DNA of 33,803 bases from a virus. The notes beneath the pieces are model-generated. The model did no database searches, was not told where the DNA came from, and saw only the letters and a list, made by a program, of their open reading frames with translations. The position numbers were made by a program, and so were the translations under genes. The first letter of the stretch is position 1, and each line of letters opens with the position of its first letter. Below are positions 2,250 through 16,023 of this stretch, piece after piece. The stretch is taken from IMG/VR virus record IMGVR_UViG_3300035228_001434, positions 1 through 33,803 of that record; one strand, written 5' to 3'.

Positions 2250-3455
2250 ATGGCAAAAATTCTCTACTGTGGCGATTGCGCTATCCAGACTGGTTTTGGT
2301 CGTGTCGCTGAAAATGTGCTGAAGGCTTTAGCCACAGAGCATGAAGTGGTTGCTTTGGCAGTGAATTACTGGGGTGACCCTCATGATTTGCCTTACAGGC
2401 TTTACCCAGCGCAGAACGGCGGAAGTGACCCGTTTGGAACGCATCGCATCCGAGAAGTAATCTCGCAAGAGAAACCCGACATTGTTTTTGTTGTTAATGA
2501 TATTTGGGTGGCAAATAAATTGTGGGAGGCAGCCAAGCCCTTAAAAGATGAGCTGGGATTCAAGTGGTATGTCTACTTCCCAGTGGATAGCTACGGTTTT
2601 TTCCCTGAAGTCTTTGCACCGGCTGCGGAATGGGATGGCATGGGGACATATACAGCGTTCGGATTAGAAGAGGTAAAGAAAGCTGGCTGCGAACTACCTT
2701 GCGACGTTATTCCTCATGGAATCGATCATGACAATTTCTTCAAGATTGACAAGAATGAAGCTCGCAAGACATTCGATTTAACCCCTGAAGATTTCATTGT
2801 CTTTAATGGCAACAGGAATCAACCGCGTAAGCGGATTGATTTGACCATTAAAGGATTTCTTCAGTTCGCGAAGGACAAGCCTGACGCCAAGCTTTGGCTT
2901 CACATGGGCCGGAAAGATCAGGGTTGGGACATCGTGTCATTGTTCAAGCGAGTTGCAAAGAGTCATGGCATTGATCCAAAAGGTCGCTTGATATTGACAG
3001 CCAATGAATTTGAAGTAACACAATGTCTGCCAGTCAAGCAATTGAACGTTGCTTATAACTGCGCAGATGTCGGGGTGAATACTTGTCTGGGAGAAGGGTG
3101 GGGGCTGGTTAATTTTGAACAAGCTGCTACAGGGGTGGCTCAAGTTGTGCCAGATCACACCTCTCTCAAGGAAATTTTTTCCAGCATTCCTCGTATTCCT
3201 ATCGAGAGCTGGGAAGTTGATCGAAACTATGGCCTAGATAGGGGCCAGCCCTCCCCAGAGGGGCTGGCCTCTATTCTTGAGCACTATTATGACAATCGAG
3301 AAGATTTGAATGCAGTGGCCAACTGGTGTCACAAGATGACTCAGCAAGAGATCTACACTTGGGAAGTTATCGGTGAAGCTTTCTTGACAGTCATGAATCG
3401 CACGCTTGCTGCGCCTCCGAAGCTGCCTCGCAAGCGCAAAATTCAAGAGGCTTGA
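2250..3455 (+). CDS. Glycosyltransferase, GT4-like (GT-B fold)
   Basis: The protein has 401 residues and the two-domain layout of GT-B glycosyltransferases. The N-terminal domain opens with a beta strand and glycine turn (ILYCGDCAIQTGFGRV). The linker carries IPHGID (154-159), common before the nucleotide-sugar domain, followed by NRNQPRKR (188-195). The C-terminal domain holds the E-x7-E signature of GT4 enzymes (EGWGLVNFE, E282 and E290). Donor and acceptor cannot be read from sequence. It sits between minor head and accessory genes and is followed directly by a methyltransferase, so the pair probably acts together, either on virion proteins or on host surface glycan; this is inference. No Shine-Dalgarno is visible before ATG 2250. 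Confidence 0.85.
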   Translation: MAKILYCGDCAIQTGFGRVAENVLKALATEHEVVALAVNYWGDPHDLPYRLYPAQNGGSDPFGTHRIREVISQEKPDIVFVVNDIWVANKLWEAAKPLKDELGFKWYVYFPVDSYGFFPEVFAPAAEWDGMGTYTAFGLEEVKKAGCELPCDVIPHGIDHDNFFKIDKNEARKTFDLTPEDFIVFNGNRNQPRKRIDLTIKGFLQFAKDKPDAKLWLHMGRKDQGWDIVSLFKRVAKSHGIDPKGRLILTANEFEVTQCLPVKQLNVAYNCADVGVNTCLGEGWGLVNFEQAATGVAQVVPDHTSLKEIFSSIPRIPIESWEVDRNYGLDRGQPSPEGLASILEHYYDNREDLNAVANWCHKMTQQEIYTWEVIGEAFLTVMNRTLAAPPKLPRKRKIQEA

Positions 3456-3457
3456 TC

Positions 3458-4171
3458 ATGAACTTTCATTTTCGGGAAAACACTTACGACGCTTCTATTT
3501 TTGACTTTGTTGTTCGTCAAAATGAATACGAATTAGGCGATTTATCTGGCAAGCGCATTCTTGATATTGGCGGTCATATTGGCTGCTTTTCTTTAAAAGC
3601 ATTGCGCTGCAATGCTGAAAAAGTTATTTCATTTGAGCCAAACCAGGACAACTACGACCTGGCATCTTCTAATCTGGCAGGTAATGCAGGGAAAGCGAAA
3701 GTCGTCAGGGCTGCTGTTTCCCGCAGTGACAAATCAGTCGAGGTACGCTTTGAGCCCAGTGATAATCCCGTCAATTCTGGTGGCGGTTGTAGTGTTACTG
3801 GCCTCGGAGAGGTTGTTCCTTCCATCTCTCTTGATGACGCTATTGAGCAGTACAACGCGAATTGGATCAAGATTGACGCGGAAGGTGCGGAGTTTCCTGC
3901 TCTCTACACTTGCACCAAGCTCGATCAGATCGAAACGATTGTTGGAGAGTTCCACAATGGCGTGGGAACGCAAGGAATGGGAGCATTCTTGTTCGAGGAA
4001 AACACCCCGGAGTTCCTGGCAGACTTCAAGGGTCGTCTCACGATGGTGAAGTTGGCTGAGTTTTTAAAGGAGCAAGGTTTTCGAGTGTTGTTTGAATACA
4101 CAGCAGGAGAACAGCTCGGATTATTCTGGGCTTCAAAAGATTTTGATTGCCTCCTTGTTGAACCTGCATAA
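3458..4171 (+). CDS. FkbM-family SAM-dependent methyltransferase
   Basis: The protein has 237 residues. The SAM-binding motif I is clear (ILDIGGHIGCFSL, 34-46), with an acidic residue ending the next strand (ISFEP, E60). WIKIDAEGAEF (136-146) is the hallmark of FkbM-type methyltransferases, which commonly O-methylate sugars. The substrate is likely a glycan made by the adjacent glycosyltransferase, by inference from context. ATG 3458 is preferred over TTG 3452: an AGAGG sits 7 bases upstream and the ATG lies 2 bases after the upstream stop (3453-3455). Coupled translation with the glycosyltransferase is likely. Confidence 0.87.
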   Translation: MNFHFRENTYDASIFDFVVRQNEYELGDLSGKRILDIGGHIGCFSLKALRCNAEKVISFEPNQDNYDLASSNLAGNAGKAKVVRAAVSRSDKSVEVRFEPSDNPVNSGGGCSVTGLGEVVPSISLDDAIEQYNANWIKIDAEGAEFPALYTCTKLDQIETIVGEFHNGVGTQGMGAFLFEENTPEFLADFKGRLTMVKLAEFLKEQGFRVLFEYTAGEQLGLFWASKDFDCLLVEPA

Positions 4172-4206: not shown

Positions 4207-4464
4207 ATGACAGGGCGTCAGAAAAAAATTGCCAAAGTTATGAATGAGTTTGAGGCTGGAACGCTAAAAAGCAGTAGCGGTGAAGTCGTCAAAGATCCTC
4301 GTCAAGCCATGGCAGTTGCCATGAGTGAAGCTGGCGTATCCAAGGATGGTAAAAGCGATGAGTATATTGCTGGTTATTTAGATCAGATGATGGGGCCTGG
4401 CGAGAAACGTTGTCGCGGCTACATGAAGAAGTTGGCGTCAGATCGCCGTAAGAAAAAAAAGTAG
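4207..4464 (+). CDS. Small basic DUF6496-like protein (0-frame product, ends at slippery site)
   Basis: The product has 85 residues. It resembles the small DUF6496-type proteins seen in phages: VMNEFEAGTLKSSSGEVVKD followed by PRQAMAVAMSEAG. A second half (GYLDQMMGPGEKRCRGYMKK) leads to a strongly basic end, DRRKKKK. The function is unknown. The last codons form AAA AAA AAG immediately followed by TAG, a canonical bacterial -1 slippery heptamer (A AAA AAG, 4455-4461), so a fraction of ribosomes may continue into the next frame and make a fusion of about 203 residues ending at 4817. No Shine-Dalgarno precedes ATG 4207. Confidence 0.75.
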   Translation: MTGRQKKIAKVMNEFEAGTLKSSSGEVVKDPRQAMAVAMSEAGVSKDGKSDEYIAGYLDQMMGPGEKRCRGYMKKLASDRRKKKK

Positions 4465-4493
4465 ACAGGGGCGATGCCGAAGGTTTCGCCCCT
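4455..4493 (+). promoter_or_regulatory. Predicted programmed -1 frameshift signal
   Basis: The slippery heptamer A AAA AAG (4455-4461) is in the correct phase of the upstream gene and is followed at once by TAG (4462-4464). After a 5-base spacer, AGGGGCGA (4467-4474) pairs perfectly with TCGCCCCT (4486-4493). The 11-base loop can add three inner pairs (GCC with GGT). This is the layout of dnaX-type frameshift sites. There is no T-run after the hairpin, so it is not a terminator. The competing explanation is a one-base sequencing error in the A8 run. Confidence 0.75.
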
Positions 4494-4817
4494 CCTAAAG
4501 GTGTTCAAGCAGCAGCTCGTCGCGGCCTAGAGCTGAGAAAAAAGCATGGAAAGGGAGGATTGACAACGCAAGAAGCTGGTAAGCAAGGCATTGGCAGTGG
4601 CGTTGCTCGCGCTACAAGCTTGTCAAATGGACAGAATGTCAGCGAGAAAACTTTGCGCAAGATGTCTGCATTCTTTTCTCGGCACGAAAAGAATAAAAGC
4701 GGTGGAGAGGATGATGCTGGTTATATTGCGTGGCTGTTATGGGGAGGAGACCCTGGCAGAACTTGGGCAAACAAGACAATTAGGATGATCGAAAATCGCA
4801 AGCAAAACGATGGATGA
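4461..4817 (+). CDS. Downstream half of frameshift fusion, 'RHE / WLLWGGD' domain
   Basis: Read in the -1 frame after the slippery site, this segment encodes about 118 residues with a domain common in phage head-region proteins. Its parts are FAPPKGVQAAARRGLELRK, GSGVARATSLSNGQ, MSAFFSRHEKNK and GYIAWLLWGGDPGRTWANK. The conserved N-terminal part lies upstream of the only weak start, a TTG at 4560 that also has its GGAGGA directly abutting it. No ATG or GTG exists in this frame between the previous in-frame stop (4449-4451) and the domain. Expression as a fusion to the DUF6496-like protein (4207-4817, about 203 residues) is therefore the most economical reading. The function is unknown; the domain is often fused to other phage head proteins. 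Confidence 0.72.
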   Translation, partial: VDRGDAEGFAPPKGVQAAARRGLELRKKHGKGGLTTQEAGKQGIGSGVARATSLSNGQNVSEKTLRKMSAFFSRHEKNKSGGEDDAGYIAWLLWGGDPGRTWANKTIRMIENRKQNDG

Positions 4818-5109
4818 CACTAAAGTGGTGAGAGAAGAGGATGGTATTGGCATTCTTGATGCCTGTCAAGTCCTTTCTCGCAATGCTCATAGGTCAACAA
4901 CTCAGTGGGAGTATGTTCATAAGCATGTCTTCAAGAATGGTCGCCTAGAAGAGACGCATGAATATGTGTTGAGTTCATACGACACTCCAGACGAAATGTT
5001 CGAGCCAGCGAAGTTCCTTTTGTTTGAAGCGCTTGCGATGGCAAAAGCCTATGTAATGGAGGGGATTGAAGAAGCCCTTGCAGATATTCAGGCAGAAGAT
5101 GATGATTAA
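4810..5109 (+). CDS. Hypothetical acidic protein
   Basis: The protein has 99 residues and I do not recognise its family. It is acidic, with a predicted helical C-terminal half (FLLFEALAMAKAYVMEGIEEALADIQ) ending in EDDD. ATG 4810 overlaps the stop of the preceding gene by 8 bases, a sign of coupling. Its 3' end overlaps by 4 bases the end of the oppositely oriented repressor-like gene. The central stretch (TQWEYVHKHVFKNGRLEETH) could be a small beta fold. Confidence 0.6.
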   Translation: MDDTKVVREEDGIGILDACQVLSRNAHRSTTQWEYVHKHVFKNGRLEETHEYVLSSYDTPDEMFEPAKFLLFEALAMAKAYVMEGIEEALADIQAEDDD

Positions 5110-5384
5110 CGCCTTGTCGTTGCGTGAACGACGAAGCTGGGGTAGCCCATAAGCCAAAGGACACTGAGCCGAAATAGTCCACTCATCATGCGAATTTGGG
5201 CCGCATCAGGGGCAACCAATCCACGTTCCATTCGAGAGATGGTTGCTTGATCGCAAAATAAAGCTTCAGCAACGTTTTTCTGACTTAGTCCAGATTCTTG
5301 ACGAGCTTCCCGAATGCGGGAAGCTATGAGTTCTCGTACTTCAAGAAAGGACAGATCAGGAGCGATAACTTGCAGTGTCTTCAT
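5106..5384 (-). CDS. XRE/Cro-CI-like helix-turn-helix regulator
   Basis: The protein has 92 residues and is the only convincing minus-strand gene in the window. Residues about 20-80 form an XRE-type HTH: IASRIREARQESGLSQKNVA, then the recognition helix region CDQATISRMERG (44-55). Such proteins bind palindromic operators as dimers. It is transcribed away from the capsid genes, and its upstream region holds a 17-bp palindrome next to a GATAAT box on its own strand (5412-5407). Autorepression and control of the protease/capsid operon are plausible but inferred. It has no dimerisation or protease domain beyond the HTH and a short C-terminal tail (YPSFVVHATTRR). The CAT complement of the start codon is at 5382-5384, without a clear Shine-Dalgarno. 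Confidence 0.82.
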   Translation of the reverse strand: MKTLQVIAPDLSFLEVRELIASRIREARQESGLSQKNVAEALFCDQATISRMERGLVAPDAAQIRMMSGLFRLSVLWLMGYPSFVVHATTRR

Positions 5385-6648: not shown

Positions 6649-7218
6649 ATGGCCGTTACTTTTTCCACTAGCTCTGGTTCTGCTGGTGGCGTTCAGTCTG
6701 CTTACGCAAATGAACTGACCGCTGCACTGGAAGGCCAGTTTGCGGATATTGCTGATAACAACGTTCTGACTTTTGTCAACGAAACTTCAGCCGTGCTTGC
6801 CTATGGCGGCCTGGGTGTTGTGAATGGCTCTGGCAGCGTTGGCAATTCTGTCAAGACTGTGTCTGCTCCGACTGACACTGCAGTTGGCATTGTCGCCCTC
6901 ACCTATGTAGATGAGAGTGCAACCGATTCCAACAGCCGTCCCGGGGTTAAAGACGATCAAGCGGTGAACATTCTTTCCAAGGGTGTTGTTGCTGTTTTCT
7001 GTGTTGAAGCTGTTGACTACACCAGCGCCGTTCGTGTTTATCACGATGCCGACACAGGCACTACCAGCGGCTCTTTCGCTGGTCGTTTTGCAGCAACTGC
7101 TGCTGCTAACAAGACCGCCGTCCTAAGTGGTGCCCGTTGGGTATCCAAGACATCTGCTGCTGGCATTGCACTGCTAGAGCTGAATGGTCCTGACTTCTCC
7201 CTTACCGCTGACACCTGA
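6649..7218 (+). CDS. Capsid decoration / structural cement protein (DUF2190-like)
   Basis: The protein has 189 residues, rich in Ala, Gly, Ser, Thr and Val with predicted beta structure. The central part (SVKTVSAPTDTAVGIVALTY and VNILSKGVVAVFCVEAV) resembles phage structural cement proteins that cap the shell at lattice vertices. Its position between protease and major capsid protein fits. It has one of the few strong ribosome binding sites in the window, AAGGAGG about 10 bases before ATG 6649, consistent with a high-copy virion protein. The exact family is inferred from composition and context. Confidence 0.65.
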   Translation: MAVTFSTSSGSAGGVQSAYANELTAALEGQFADIADNNVLTFVNETSAVLAYGGLGVVNGSGSVGNSVKTVSAPTDTAVGIVALTYVDESATDSNSRPGVKDDQAVNILSKGVVAVFCVEAVDYTSAVRVYHDADTGTTSGSFAGRFAATAAANKTAVLSGARWVSKTSAAGIALLELNGPDFSLTADT

Positions 7219-7231
7219 TAGGAGGCCCCCA

Positions 7232-8140
7232 ATGAGCGAATTTCGTCTTGATGATGCTGGCCTCTTCCTTGATCGCCAGCTTGAGTACATCCGTCCACAA
7301 ATTTTTGAAGTTGAATATTCGGACATCAAATATTCAACAATCCTGCCCGTAACAAGCGAGGCCGGACCAGGCGCACAAACATTCACGTATCGCATCATGG
7401 ATGCGACCGGTGACTTCAAGCTCATCTCTGATGCTGCTGATGATCTGCCGCGTGCTGATGTGACCCAAACCGAGAAGAGCATCAACATCCGCTCCTTTGG
7501 TGGTTCCTTCGGGTACACCGTGCAGGAGCTGCGTGCTGCTCAAACGGCCAATGTTGCTCTTGAAAATCGTCGTGCTTCTGCTGTTCGCAGGGCATACGAA
7601 GAGAAGGTAGAAAGTGTCGCCATGTTTGGCGAATCTTCTGTTGGTCTGTCTGGTTTCTTCAACAATTCAACTGTTGATGTGATCAGCGCTAACAAGTGGT
7701 TCTCTACTTCTGGCGCAACTGCAGATGAAATGCTTTCCATCTTGAATAAAGGTGTAAGTGCAATCATCAGCGGTTCCAAAATGAAGGAACAGCCCGACAC
7801 AATCCTCATTTCATACGAGGACTACAACACTATTTCAACCACTCGTAATTCCGATAGCTCGGACGTAACGGTGCTTGAGTATTTCTTGCGGACTAATCCA
7901 TACATTCGCAATGTTGAGCCTGTCAATCAGCTTGATGCTGATAACAGCTCACTCACTCGTAACCGTATGGTGGTTTACAAGCGTGACCCCCAGAAGGTTC
8001 AACTTCACATTCCTCAGCCCCTCGAACTGTTCCCGCCTCAGCAGCGTGGTCTTGAGTTCGTCGTTCCAGCTCACGCTCGCGTGGGCGGAGTTGCGCTGTA
8101 CTACCCCAAGAGTGTGATTTACGTTCAGGCTCCTTCCTGA
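7232..8140 (+). CDS. Major capsid protein (DUF2184 type, HK97 fold)
   Basis: The protein has 302 residues from ATG 7232, which follows TAGGAGG with a 7-base gap; an upstream in-frame GTG at 7184 would overlap the preceding gene and is rejected. The sequence matches DUF2184 major capsid proteins: IFEVEYSDIKYSTILPV near the N-terminus, TFTYRIMDATGDFKLI, the E-loop-like region, SFGGSFGYTVQELR, and the C-terminal LEFVVPAHARVGGVALYYPK. It forms the icosahedral shell. It lies directly after the decoration protein and before the neck genes. A 52-base gap without a clear hairpin follows. Confidence 0.85.
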   Translation: MSEFRLDDAGLFLDRQLEYIRPQIFEVEYSDIKYSTILPVTSEAGPGAQTFTYRIMDATGDFKLISDAADDLPRADVTQTEKSINIRSFGGSFGYTVQELRAAQTANVALENRRASAVRRAYEEKVESVAMFGESSVGLSGFFNNSTVDVISANKWFSTSGATADEMLSILNKGVSAIISGSKMKEQPDTILISYEDYNTISTTRNSDSSDVTVLEYFLRTNPYIRNVEPVNQLDADNSSLTRNRMVVYKRDPQKVQLHIPQPLELFPPQQRGLEFVVPAHARVGGVALYYPKSVIYVQAPS

Positions 8141-10821: not shown

Positions 10822-11078
10822 AAAGCTTTGACTATTTAGTCAGCAACGACAGTCGCGTTCATGCAATTAATTGCAAGTCATCTGGCAGCACTTTGAGTGT
10901 TGGGATTTTTTGCGCTATTGCTATGGACAAAAACAGTTGTAGAATTTCTGACGAAAACGATTCTTTTACAGTTGAGCTCTCTGACGAGCTTTTCTCTCGA
11001 GGTAATCGAGTCAAAGCTTTTAACGTTAATCTGGCAATCTTGAAACATGAGCAAGTACAGCTTTCTTCTTCAATCTGA
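10818..11078 (+). CDS. Small hypothetical protein before tail chaperones
   Basis: The product has 86 residues with no family I recognise. It is Ser/Asn-rich with alternating hydrophobic residues (TLSVGIFCAIAM, DSFTVELSDELFSRG), suggesting a small beta fold. ATG 10818 overlaps the preceding TGA, which supports it as a real coupled gene, but its 3' end overlaps the next gene by 32 bases, more than other pairs here. An ACTATTTAGT element occurs just inside it (10831-10840). Confidence 0.5.
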   Translation: MKSFDYLVSNDSRVHAINCKSSGSTLSVGIFCAIAMDKNSCRISDENDSFTVELSDELFSRGNRVKAFNVNLAILKHEQVQLSSSI

Positions 11079-11589
11079 AGAACCTGAATATTTTGAGCTA
11101 TTGTCAACGCTTCGTTTGAAAAAGCATGGTGGCTGGCTGGTTGCAGAATCTATTGAGCAGGAAGAAATTTCTCGCAATCAAAGCCAGGCAACTGTTCGCG
11201 CTGTGCAGCTTGCAAAACGTATTGCCAAAGACAAGGACATCTCTCTTGAAGAGGCTTTCAATGCGCTTCAGGGAGCCGGAGGATTGTCTGAAATGGACCT
11301 TCTCAGTGATTACACAGAAGATGCCTTAGATATGCTCACAGGAGGTAATTCCGCTGAAGCTGGAAATGCAAAGCTGGTGACCGTCTTTATTCGCACTCGT
11401 GGTGAAGGTTTAATTGAGGGTGAATGGGAGCCTGTCGAAGATTGGTCATTAGAAGACACCAAAGGTATGGGGCGTCAGCTTGTCGCCAAGGTCTTGGAAT
11501 TTGTCATGGAGGAACAGCAAGCTGAGTCTGGAGAGGCCGAGCAAAAAAAAGGCCGGAGCCGGAAGAAGATCCCGGCCCTAGAGGGCTAG
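11047..11589 (+). CDS. Tail assembly chaperone (lambda G-like, 0-frame product)
   Basis: The product has 180 residues. It lies directly before the tape measure, where lambda G and GT lie, and ends in a charged tail (EAEQKKGRSRKK). The middle is helical (NALQGAGGLSEMDLLSDYTE) with conserved-looking acidic stretches. Such chaperones coat the tape measure during tail tube growth and are absent from the finished virion. The gene contains a slippery A AAA AAA near its end (11544-11550), and the -1 frame continues open for 155 codons, giving a longer GT-like form. Confidence 0.72.
   Translation: MSKYSFLLQSEEPEYFELLSTLRLKKHGGWLVAESIEQEEISRNQSQATVRAVQLAKRIAKDKDISLEEAFNALQGAGGLSEMDLLSDYTEDALDMLTGGNSAEAGNAKLVTVFIRTRGEGLIEGEWEPVEDWSLEDTKGMGRQLVAKVLEFVMEEQQAESGEAEQKKGRSRKKIPALEG
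11544..11576 (+). promoter_or_regulatory. Predicted programmed -1 frameshift signal (G/GT type)
   Basis: The heptamer A AAA AAA (11544-11550) is in phase with the chaperone frame (codons CAA AAA AAA). GCCGG (11558-11562) pairs with CCGGC (11572-11576) after a 7-base spacer, with a 9-base loop; an alternative 6-bp stem GGCCGG/CCGGCC starts directly after the heptamer. Lambda G/GT and many other tailed phages use -1 frameshifting here, so position supports it. Confidence 0.78.
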
Positions 11590-12054: not shown

Positions 12055-15000
12055 ATGGCGGCTGAGCTTAGGCTAAATGTTGCGCTTGATCTGCAGTATT
12101 TCAAGCGCCAACTTCCAAAACTCAGCCAAGCTGCTGCTGGCTTTCAACTGCCTATTCAAATTAAGTTTGACGGCAGACAGATACGAAAAGAGTTAAATAA
12201 GCTCACTGGGCGTAGAGAATTTAGGATCAATATCAATGACACGGCAATTCGCAGTGCGTTAGAGAATACTAAAAAACTTGAAAAGGCTCTTAGAGACTTA
12301 GAGACTGTATCAAAAAGGTCAGTAACTGCTGCATCTCCAGTCGGAGCAGGGCGGCTTTCGAGAACCGCGAGTCAAGGTGGTCTTAATGCTGGTGAGATTC
12401 GAGCCCTTTACCAGCAGGCAGCAACAGAAGGGCTGGCTGGATTCAAGGCGGGTGTAAGAGTAAACCGCAAGGATGCAGAACTGCAACTGGGTCAACTAGC
12501 GGCTGATGCCGTCAAAGGCTTAATTGCAGGCTTGAAGAAGGGACAAGGCAAGGTTGGCACGGCTTCTGAAGGTCTTGCAAATGAACTTGTCGATTCAATG
12601 GAGGATCGTCTTCAGATAAGTTCTCCATCCAGGCGGCTGATGGAGGTTGGCCGTCAGGCAGCAAAAGGTTTTGAGATTGGCATGAGTAAGGGCCTGAAAA
12701 GGGCTCAAACTGCGGCGCTAAGTCAATTGCAGGCAATGCTGATTGCCATGCAGGCAGAGGTGAGAAGCTTTGGAAGTGGCAGTGCTCAGAGGCAAATGAC
12801 AGCAATGTCAAGGGGAGCTGCGGCTGTACCTGCGGGCATGATGACCAGCGCGACTGGTCGTCCACGCTTTAGATCTTCAAGAGTTGGAGATGTCAATCAA
12901 GTTGCCGGTGCTTTTGGCCGCATTGGTTCTGTAGGTGGAGGCCCTGGTAGAGGATCTTTCAGATTTGCACCTCGTCAGTTAACAGGAGCTGCATCACCTT
13001 TATCGCTGCCAAGCGGAGAGATGCGTGCTTCTGCGCGTTCTGCAATGCTGCAGGGTCGAATAGCTGCCGCACAAGCCCGCGGAGGCTCCACCGGATCTCA
13101 CTTCCATTCCGCATCGCGTGGAGGAGGACGGATGCAATCCGCTCTTCCTCCTGCAGCAAGTTCTCAAAGGACTGGTGGCTCAGGGCCTCGTCTTAGTGGT
13201 GCTGCTTTTCCAGGGCAGTTGCCTAACTTGCCAGGAGCTGCTGCTGTTAGTGGACTGGCGAATGAATTCAGCAATGCAACAAAACAAGTGTTGCTGTTTG
13301 GTACTGCGTATAAAGCACTTGCGTTCTTTATGGACTTCCCTTCGCAAGTTGGGGCTGCAGTTGGTGCGCTGCAAAGTTTCAACAATACGTTGGCAGCAAT
13401 ATCGCCATCGGCTGAAGAAGCAGCCAAGTCAAATGCCTTTATTTTGGGCATTGTTAACCGTTACAACGTACCGCTTCAAAGTGCTCGTGATGGCTTCACG
13501 AAACTCTACGCCTCAATGGCTCCGGCTGGGTTTGAGGGAGATGAGATCAAAGAACTTTTCTTAGGAGTTAGCCAAGCGGCGGCAACGTTTGGGATGAGCT
13601 CTGACAAGGTTGATCGCATGAATTATGCGTTCGCCCAAATGGCATCGAAGGGCCAAATTATGTCAGAAGAGCTCAAAGGGCAGCTCGGAGACGTGCTCCC
13701 TGGCGCCATGGGCATCTTTGCGGAAGCTGCGGGACTTGAAGGCCCTGATGCGATTCAGAAGTTTACAAAAGCTTTGGAAGATGGCGCTTTCCAGGGCGAA
13801 AACATGACAGCGTTGCTGAAGAATGTTGGTCAAGTATTGCAAGACGAATTCGGCCCTGGAGCTGAAGGTGCTGCTCGAACGTTCCAAGGCTTAATGAATC
13901 GACTGCAAACGTCATTGACACTTCTTTATGAATCTTTTGAACCACTTGCTGTTCAATTCTTAAACACTTTTGTTGTGCCTCTGTCTGAGGGAATTAAAAC
14001 AGTAACTGACGGCTTCAAGGCGTTCTTCTCTGGCACTGCCGCAGAAACTACGAAGGGTCAAGCATTCGCGAATCAGTTGAATGAAATGCGAGGAGCTTTC
14101 GCTGGCATTAGAGCAAATGCTGTCACTGTAATTGAGACATTGAAGCAGTTTGGTGCGGTGTTATTGCCCATCTTGCAAATAACATTGCAGATTGCATCTA
14201 GTCCCTTTGTTGGCTTCTTAGCGCGACTGTACTTAATTGTCTTGCCGTTAGTCAAGGTGTTTGGCTTATTAAAGCTCGCATTTGTTGCGTTCAACACGGT
14301 GTTGTTCTTGAGCACTGGAAAGCTTTCGGCCTTCCGCGCATTGATGCTGATGACAGGCAAGTCAGCAGCCCTTACTGCTGGGTCAGTTAGAGGCGCTGGT
14401 TTGGCTATAAAATCAGCTTTTGCATCTACAGGTATTGGACTGGTTCTTGTCGGCCTGGGATTGTTGATTGAAAAAATCATGACTCTTCGCATGAAGATGG
14501 ATCAGGTGAGGCAGTCTGCTCAGGAGGCTGCTCTTGCTATTCAATTCATGTCAGGCGCTGAAGCCAAAGCAACACAATCACAGGCGGAGTCTGATGTTAA
14601 AGTTCTGAGAAATCTTCGCGAAAGAACTCAAGGTAAATCGGCTGCAACTAAAACAAAAGTTACACCTGCAGAGCAAGCGGCTCTTGAAAGAGCTGGTCAA
14701 ATGGCTCAAAAATTTACATCAAAGAGAGATGCGGGAGGTGCTATAGAAACGTCTTTAGGTGCCAGCAATCAACAAGTTAGTGACGCACTTGGTCAAGCGC
14801 AAACTAATAGAACCTTGGCATCAAACCGAGTGTTAGAGACAGTTGCTGAAGAGGCAAGTACGAAAGCTGAGATGGAGAAATTGATGGAGGAGGTAAAGCT
14901 TGCCAGCTCTGGAGATGGCTCTGCAGGTGGAAGTGGCGCTGAAGGTCCAACAGATATCACGGGCGATCAGCTAGTAGTTATCGAAGCAATTAATCAGAAA

Positions 15001-16023
15001 CGAAGAGAAGGAAACCAAGCAGCTCTTATTCATTTAGAGTTTGCAAGAGAATTGCTTGATATTCATAATTCTGATCTGGGCGTAAATGATAAAGCCGGTA
15101 AACTAGATAGTGCTCGGACGAAGCATTCTGAAGCACTTAAGAAGCTTGACAAAGAAAAAGCCGAAGAAAGCAAAAAGGCATTAGAAATTGAACAAAAGAC
15201 TCGTGAAGACCTAAATCTCATCTTGCGCGACGCTCAACTCGCTTCTGGTGCGATATCTCAAGAAGCTTATGACGCTGCAATGTTTGAGCGCGACAGGGAG
15301 TCAACATTGAGAAGAATTAAAAAAATGGAGGAAGATGGTGCGCCTCCTGAATTGGTCGCACGCACTAGAGCGGCTGTTGAGGCAGGTGAGCCTCCGTCTG
15401 ATGACAAGTCTTTTGGAGCTGGCATTGATTCATGGATAGAGAAGACAGAGGAAGAATTAACTAATTTCAAAGCAATGGCGGAATCTGCTGCTGACGGAAT
15501 TGCAAGTGAATTTGGTACTGCATTCAGTGGCATCCTTCAAGGAACCATGTCTTTACAAGAAGGACTCGGTCAGGCATTTACAAACATTGGAGCCATGTTT
15601 GCCGACATGGTCGCTCAGATGCTTGTTAAGTGGGCAATGGTTCAGATCTTTAAAAGCGTATTCCCAGGTTTTGCTGATGGTGGTGTCGTAAATGCTTCTG
15701 GAGGTGGCGGTGCTCCAAAATTTGGCCCTGGATTTGCAAATGGCGGTCTTGTGACTGGTCCGACAATGGCAATGGTTGGTGAAGGCCGCTTCAACGAGGC
15801 CATCGTGCCTCTGCCAAATGGCAAGTCCATTCCTGTTGAAATGAATGGAGGTGCTGGCGGCAACATTGCTACTAACATTACAGTCAACGTCAACAATGGT
15901 CAGGCGTCCTCTAAATCTTCAGGATCGCAAGGTAATAACCTTGCTCGCAGTCTTGAAGGAGCTGTCAAGCAGGTTATCATGCGTGAAATGCAACCAGGCG
16001 GCATGATCAATAGCAAGCGTTAA
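12055..16023 (+). CDS. Tape measure protein
   Basis: This is the longest gene, 1322 residues. Residues about 140-235 contain SSPSRRLMEVGRQAAKGFEI, common in tape measures. Residues about 410-625 match the TIGR02675-type tape measure domain (for example VNRYNVPLQSARDGFTKLYA and ELKGQLGDVLPGAMGIF). Hydrophobic segments lie at about 700-760 and 790-808, and a helical, probably coiled region follows. Residues about 1138-1205 (GTAFSGILQGTMSLQEGLGQ) resemble the C-terminal part of lambda gpH, and the Gly-rich end with GEGRFNEAIVPLPNGK is typical. Using about 0.15 nm per residue, the tail would be near 200 nm long, before any processing. ATG 12055 directly follows AAGG, too close for normal Shine-Dalgarno use. 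Confidence 0.92.
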   Translation: MAAELRLNVALDLQYFKRQLPKLSQAAAGFQLPIQIKFDGRQIRKELNKLTGRREFRININDTAIRSALENTKKLEKALRDLETVSKRSVTAASPVGAGRLSRTASQGGLNAGEIRALYQQAATEGLAGFKAGVRVNRKDAELQLGQLAADAVKGLIAGLKKGQGKVGTASEGLANELVDSMEDRLQISSPSRRLMEVGRQAAKGFEIGMSKGLKRAQTAALSQLQAMLIAMQAEVRSFGSGSAQRQMTAMSRGAAAVPAGMMTSATGRPRFRSSRVGDVNQVAGAFGRIGSVGGGPGRGSFRFAPRQLTGAASPLSLPSGEMRASARSAMLQGRIAAAQARGGSTGSHFHSASRGGGRMQSALPPAASSQRTGGSGPRLSGAAFPGQLPNLPGAAAVSGLANEFSNATKQVLLFGTAYKALAFFMDFPSQVGAAVGALQSFNNTLAAISPSAEEAAKSNAFILGIVNRYNVPLQSARDGFTKLYASMAPAGFEGDEIKELFLGVSQAAATFGMSSDKVDRMNYAFAQMASKGQIMSEELKGQLGDVLPGAMGIFAEAAGLEGPDAIQKFTKALEDGAFQGENMTALLKNVGQVLQDEFGPGAEGAARTFQGLMNRLQTSLTLLYESFEPLAVQFLNTFVVPLSEGIKTVTDGFKAFFSGTAAETTKGQAFANQLNEMRGAFAGIRANAVTVIETLKQFGAVLLPILQITLQIASSPFVGFLARLYLIVLPLVKVFGLLKLAFVAFNTVLFLSTGKLSAFRALMLMTGKSAALTAGSVRGAGLAIKSAFASTGIGLVLVGLGLLIEKIMTLRMKMDQVRQSAQEAALAIQFMSGAEAKATQSQAESDVKVLRNLRERTQGKSAATKTKVTPAEQAALERAGQMAQKFTSKRDAGGAIETSLGASNQQVSDALGQAQTNRTLASNRVLETVAEEASTKAEMEKLMEEVKLASSGDGSAGGSGAEGPTDITGDQLVVIEAINQKRREGNQAALIHLEFARELLDIHNSDLGVNDKAGKLDSARTKHSEALKKLDKEKAEESKKALEIEQKTREDLNLILRDAQLASGAISQEAYDAAMFERDRESTLRRIKKMEEDGAPPELVARTRAAVEAGEPPSDDKSFGAGIDSWIEKTEEELTNFKAMAESAADGIASEFGTAFSGILQGTMSLQEGLGQAFTNIGAMFADMVAQMLVKWAMVQIFKSVFPGFADGGVVNASGGGGAPKFGPGFANGGLVTGPTMAMVGEGRFNEAIVPLPNGKSIPVEMNGGAGGNIATNITVNVNNGQASSKSSGSQGNNLARSLEGAVKQVIMREMQPGGMINSKR

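Follow-up and report, generated by a model that had tools for sequence, protein, structure and literature searches.

Organization of the Locus

The window, meaning the whole 33.8-kb viral contig that was analyzed, carries portal, glycosyltransferase, and FkbM methyltransferase genes followed by a DUF6496 gene paired with a region encoding what is called here the WLLWGGD domain. Downstream of the pair, the window annotation places a DUF2213 head protease, a cement protein, and the major capsid gene. The 85-residue product of the upstream gene matches DUF6496 (PF20106) over residues 5–42 with 26.1 bits against a curated cut-off of 24, which bears out the family assignment given in a preliminary description made from the sequence alone. 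No Pfam or NCBIfam family covers the WLLWGGD domain, and a search of the window against Rfam found no family.

The 3' end of the DUF6496 gene reads AAG AAA AAA AAG TAG, and the features that surround it are listed in Table 1. The preliminary description had proposed that a −1 frameshift joins the two domains, on the grounds of an in-phase slippery heptamer abutting the stop codon, an 8-bp stem beginning five bases after the heptamer, and a −1 frame with only one weak start. On re-examination of the sequence all of its coordinates for the locus were correct. The 29-nt hairpin folds with an energy of −18.6 kcal/mol, and the 66-nt cassette has a z score of −2.5 against shuffles. The −1 frame is open from the slip site as far as the TGA at 4815–4817, and the TTG at 4560 is the only start listed for it. 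Slippage would yield a product of 203 residues (85 + 118), with a mass of about 22 kDa. The heptamer overlaps a run of eight adenines (A8, 4453–4460). The run was rejected as evidence by itself because about 1.8 such runs are expected by chance in the window; what goes beyond chance is the combination of features and their conservation.

Table 1 Features of the proposed frameshift locus and the basis on which each was assigned
Feature	Coordinates	Strand	Basis
Zero-frame gene, short form: 85-aa DUF6496 protein with lysine-rich tail	4207..4464	+	ORF; Pfam
Predicted 203-aa frameshift fusion, DUF6496 plus WLLWGGD domain	4207..4817	+	Natural one-frame fusions in ten related clusters
Slippery heptamer A_AAA_AAG, in phase	4455..4461	+	Sequence; position common to 83/83 frameshift-type clusters
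−1 frame ORF: 118-aa helical WLLWGGD domain after the slip (V D R G D A E G F ...)	4461..4817	+	Translation; selection; AlphaFold
Zero-frame stop TAG abutting the heptamer	4462..4464	+	Sequence
Stimulatory stem, 5' arm AGGGGCGA	4467..4474	+	Fold; co-variation
Stimulatory stem, 3' arm TCGCCCCT	4486..4493	+	Fold; co-variation
TTG, sole listed −1 frame start, residue 34 of the domain	4560..4562	+	ORF list

Slip Site and Stem Across Relatives

Relatives were gathered by searches with both halves of the pair and with two divergent second domains, giving 264 related viral loci, which clustering at 92% identity reduces to 99 clusters. In 83 of the 99, the upstream gene is followed by the second domain in its −1 frame. 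Automatic frame calls account for 80 of these, and L240, L056, and L156 were assigned by inspection because their DUF6496 match is weak or absent: L240 was first scored as fused through a weak upstream match, its frame being open only 18 nt upstream, and the other two have no upstream match.

Slip site, stop, and hairpin are conserved in all 83 frameshift-type clusters. The heptamer is A_AAA_AAG in 57, G_GGA_AAG in 20, and C_CCA_AAG in 6, and its position is identical throughout, exactly 12 nt 5' of the Arg codon of RGD. Atkins and colleagues, in their review, name these three as the highly shift-prone heptamers of E. coli (PMC5009743). Canonical in-phase heptamers elsewhere upstream are rare, occupying 3 of 4878 positions. 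The zero-frame stop comes 0 or 1 codon past the heptamer in 81/83 clusters. In L043 and L274 the stop beside the slip site is altered and translation would end at a more distal one (15 nt past the heptamer for L043), with heptamer and stem unchanged in position. The cultured phage S-CBS4 has A_AAA_AAG GGC TAA GGGGCGACGC at its junction, and the stem is present.

The three heptamers encode differing residues (KK, GK, and PK), in both frames, and the X_XXY_YYZ geometry never breaks. On a tree of the second domain from which the junction was excluded, the frameshift-type genes require at least 15 changes of heptamer type. Recombination may inflate this count, and the clusters are related. The slippery geometry is therefore kept while the encoded residues change. 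Selection at the slip site apparently acts on the nucleotides and not on the peptide. Recombination does not explain the absence of any non-slippery version.

Among the relatives the stem has a 7-bp core located 6 nt downstream of the heptamer, with 99.1% of cells paired across 80 distinct junctions. Both-side changes are found in 36 cells of this core, against an average of 16.6 in shuffles and with 0/500 shuffles reaching 36; three stem pairs never vary, and most of the both-side changes are on one pair. The core outscores every version of itself slid by 1–3 columns. The best co-varying column pair occurs as C-G, A-U, U-G, and G-U, and another changes from G-C to A-U. Because the stem overlaps the codons of the RGDAE(S/G)FxPP motif, its conservation is partly a protein constraint. 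This caution is answered by the fused genes described below, in which most of the motif survives without the pairing: stem pair 2 is kept in 3/10 and pair 4 in 6/10 fused clusters, and mean stem folding energy is −5.5 kcal/mol in the fused class versus −14.2 kcal/mol in the frameshift type. A Shine-Dalgarno-like stimulator 6–20 nt upstream gives no clear signal, since the core motif is found there in 27/83 clusters versus 22 and 18 in neighboring stretches.

Evidence for Translation of the −1 Frame

The pattern of substitution points to translation of the −1 frame from the slip site onward, under purifying selection. In this frame pN/pS is 0.20 for codons 1–10, 0.17 for codons 11–30, and 0.16 for the rest of the domain, so that the coding signal starts, as had been claimed from the window sequence, well before the TTG. 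The same two codon sets give 1.9 and 1.6 in the zero frame, and values in the two other frames range from 1.6 to 3.6.

Start codons are scarce over this interval. No ATG occurs between the upstream stop and codon 33 in 82/83 clusters, and 21/83 have no ATG, GTG, or TTG at all through codon 33. The TTG at residue 34 is present in only 34/83 clusters. In the AlphaFold model of the window domain (mean pLDDT 88.6) the first helix spans residues 13–29, and the TTG is probably just a Leu codon because it is located after this helix. A GTG at codon 12, absent from the window, is found in 18/83 clusters and leaves some room for extra internal initiation in those 18.

Natural One-Frame Fusions

In ten clusters one continuous reading frame covers both DUF6496 and the second domain; L155 and L165 were recognized as members of this group from their translation. 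No canonical heptamer was found near the junction of the fused clusters in any phase (0/600 placements), and the stem is weak or broken. The change between frameshift and fused states occurred 7 times on the second-domain tree with L011 counted, a number that recombination among related clusters may also inflate. L011 (4704–5351) reads as one gene only because of one extra A in the run of an otherwise frameshift-type site; either a genuine indel or a mistake in assembly could account for it. The fused genes are a natural control for the slip site and the stem, and their existence indicates that the joined protein is a genuine product of the gene family.

Proposed Mechanism and Alternatives

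Taken with this comparison, which strongly supports the proposed joining of the two domains, the locus very probably represents programmed −1 ribosomal frameshifting among the head genes of a cyanosiphovirus-like phage. The majority of ribosomes would translate the DUF6496 gene and terminate at the TAG at 4462. A fraction would pause at the hairpin (4467–4493) while the P- and A-site tRNAs are paired with AAA AAG. A backward slip of one base would re-pair these tRNAs with AAA AAA, and reading would continue from the GTA at 4461 to 4817, producing the 203-residue protein that carries the WLLWGGD domain. The mechanism is ordinary, standard −1 programmed frameshifting. The slip site, the stem, the reading frame, and their conservation are features of the compared sequences themselves; from their exact match to signals active in E. 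coli we infer that ribosomes would slip here and with what frequency.

Two other explanations concern the run of adenines. In transcriptional slippage, RNA polymerase would add or drop A's at the A8 run and the changed mRNAs would be translated normally into the fusion; with its eight A's, the run in the window comes close to the runs of nine on which bacterial polymerases slip (PMC5009743). Alternatively, sequencing or assembly could have lost one A from a continuous gene. Homopolymers are error-prone, and L011 with its one extra A does read as a fusion. The A8 run is found in L002, a separate contig 99.9% identical over 9.8 kb, and in L003, a contig 88% identical, so it is not a private assembly error. 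The relatives decide against both explanations. A long homopolymer is not conserved among them: 26/83 clusters have only three A's in the same place, as GGGAAAG or CCCAAAG, types that neither homopolymer miscounting nor poly-A transcription slippage could produce. With no A run to miscount in such relatives, the alternative of nine A's making one continuous gene, named in the preliminary description as a possible refutation, fails. The frame relation is common to all 83 clusters, including S-CBS4, a cultured phage, and the types that lack an A run. Polymerase slippage would have no use for a conserved stem 6 nt downstream. Transcriptional slippage is accordingly rated very improbable here, and an error of sequencing or assembly, already refuted by the relatives, is scarcely conceivable.

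A third explanation treats the pair as two separate genes, with the second domain started alone by reinitiation after the stop or at an internal GTG or TTG. S-CBS4 is annotated in this way, as the hypothetical genes gp018 and gp019, with gp019 starting at GTG 13217; the GTG at codon 12 of 18 clusters is a possible internal start, and the bacterial second domain is a stand-alone protein with its own ATG. Against a separate start, selection on the −1 frame begins directly after the slip site and no start codon is conserved, ATG being absent in nearly every cluster; the good start before the second domain that would have told against frameshifting is thus missing from nearly all relatives. Initiation at the TTG, the sole start in the window, would remove the first helix. 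Separate genes would also leave the heptamer and stem unexplained, and this explanation is very unlikely.

The Second Domain and a Possible Function

The pair is placed between the portal gene and the genes for DUF2213 protease, cement protein, and major capsid protein, and the frameshift and fused classes keep the same gene order: a 99-aa gene (at 4810 in the window), a reverse-strand HTH gene, DUF2213 protease, cement, and major capsid protein. The HTH-type gene (5106–5384, − strand) lies inside the head module and occupies the same place in 81/83 frameshift-type and 10/10 fused clusters. The glycosyltransferase and FkbM methyltransferase genes (2250–4171) lie between the MuF-like and DUF6496 genes, and the FkbM gene is found in only 13 related frameshift-type loci. 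The portal protein (26–1570) carries DUF5872 and DUF3721 at its C-terminal end, more small unnamed domains on a head protein.

Elsewhere the second domain keeps similar company. Three phage proteins carry it at the N terminus: an S-CBS1 protein of 836 aa that also has protease-like and capsid domains, a Vibrio phage protein of 661 aa that matches DUF2213 weakly, and a Vibrio phage protein of 258 aa from the head module. In HRTV-4 it is internal to the portal/MuF protein. In BFVD it is found in predicted prohead proteases and in XkdF-like and portal proteins. Bacterial and archaeal copies are mostly small independent proteins that have their own start, one copy lying beside a topoisomerase IB gene and another beside a Hva1_TUDOR gene; the domain is present in many Rhizobiales, Xanthomonas, and archaeal MAG genomes (L297–L374). 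One further sequence, L295 (NYTN01000090.1), is filed in a Rhodobiaceae MAG and is probably phage DNA binned with the bacterium, because at 12725 bases it is the same size as the viral contig of L090.

Both products are basic, with a pI of about 10. A PDB search with the two AlphaFold models gave no significant match (for the WLLWGGD domain, best Foldseek E 1.7 and VIA Z ≤4.4). A remote profile match to the designed DNA-binding protein 8tac (E 0.21) was dropped when a wider alignment gave a different weak match. The idea that DUF6496 is a general frameshift partner was likewise dropped, as all but one of the viral loci that have DUF6496 without the second domain lack a slip site before the stop. 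The one locus, L117 (5001–5132), has A_AAA_AAG one codon before the stop and a −1 frame open for about 266 nt, which is possibly an unrelated frameshift or chance.

Gene neighborhood and domain company suggest a role for the pair in head assembly. In this view the DUF6496 short form would be the abundant partner, and the fusion, kept scarcer by frameshifting, would carry the basic helical domain into the growing head in smaller quantity, where the WLLWGGD domain may act in the interior, perhaps contacting DNA; the structure searches weigh neither for nor against such a role. A distinctly tentative extension is that the pair could be a head counterpart of gpG/gpGT, in which the ratio of abundant DUF6496 protein to minority fusion matters for building or filling the capsid, and that the domain, delivered elsewhere by direct fusion to protease, capsid, or portal proteins, could be a widespread unnamed domain of the head interior.

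Significance

In the PMC literature, which was the part searched, no paper names DUF6496 and none combines programmed frameshifting with cyanophage capsids. The gene family, a head-module pair that is neither a tail chaperone nor a major capsid gene, is apparently undescribed, a judgment that is provisional because of that scope. Among phages, the catalogued cases belong mostly to tail chaperone or major capsid genes, and the present one would add a conserved frameshift family to phage head modules. It also offers an unusually clean natural experiment, with many heptamer switches within the shift-prone set and with repeated transitions between the frameshift arrangement and one-frame fusions that preserve neither slip site nor stem. 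An explanation is offered for the two "hypothetical" genes of S-CBS4, a case of how such genes are mis-split in annotation. Finally, the family points to an unnamed domain common to phage head proteins and to bacterial and archaeal genomes.

Comparison with Known Frameshift Systems

The stem-loop of E. coli dnaX is spaced from its heptamer much like the hairpin in the window. The dnaX case differs in that slippage there gives the short product and here would give the long one, an arrangement reported for a few bacteria in which the site is immediately followed by a zero-frame stop. It differs too in its Shine-Dalgarno-like stimulator, which is not consistently present in the window family. What the two share is the A_AAA_AAG heptamer with a 3' stem-loop and long and short products with a common N-terminal part, as in tau and gamma (PMC5009743).

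The lambda gpG/gpGT pair and other tail assembly chaperones are similar in that a −1 slip close to the 3' end of a short gene in a structural module gives a minority of the molecules a second domain, and G_GGA_AAG, among the heptamers seen here, is also used in phage g-t genes (PMC5009743). The DUF6496 pair differs in position: it belongs to the head genes and is well removed from the tape measure gene (12055–16023), the gene that tail chaperone genes directly precede. The window has a separate site at that place. The second A8 run mentioned in the preliminary description is real (11543–11550); it reads CAA AAA AAA GGC, with A_AAA_AAA in phase, in a gene at 11047–11589 whose −1 frame runs without a stop to 12014, and the tape measure gene comes directly after. 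Both layout and position fit a tail assembly chaperone frameshift.

The capsid frameshifts of T7 (10A/10B), T3, Lactobacillus phage A2, and Listeria A118/PSA likewise extend some of the molecules of a virion head protein by a domain (PMC5009743; PMC10885494). In T7 10B-type cases the zero-frame product is the major capsid protein, whereas here it is the DUF6496 protein, the major capsid protein has a separate gene (7184–8140), and the added domain is not Ig-like. A further parallel comes from the CsoS2A/CsoS2B proteins of alpha-carboxysomes, which are unrelated and encoded by cellular genes. Some CsoS2 homologues are predicted not to use frameshifting (PMC5009743). As proposed for the DUF6496 pair, frameshifting in CsoS2 gives short and long forms of a protein, in that case a builder of an icosahedral shell (PMC5009743).
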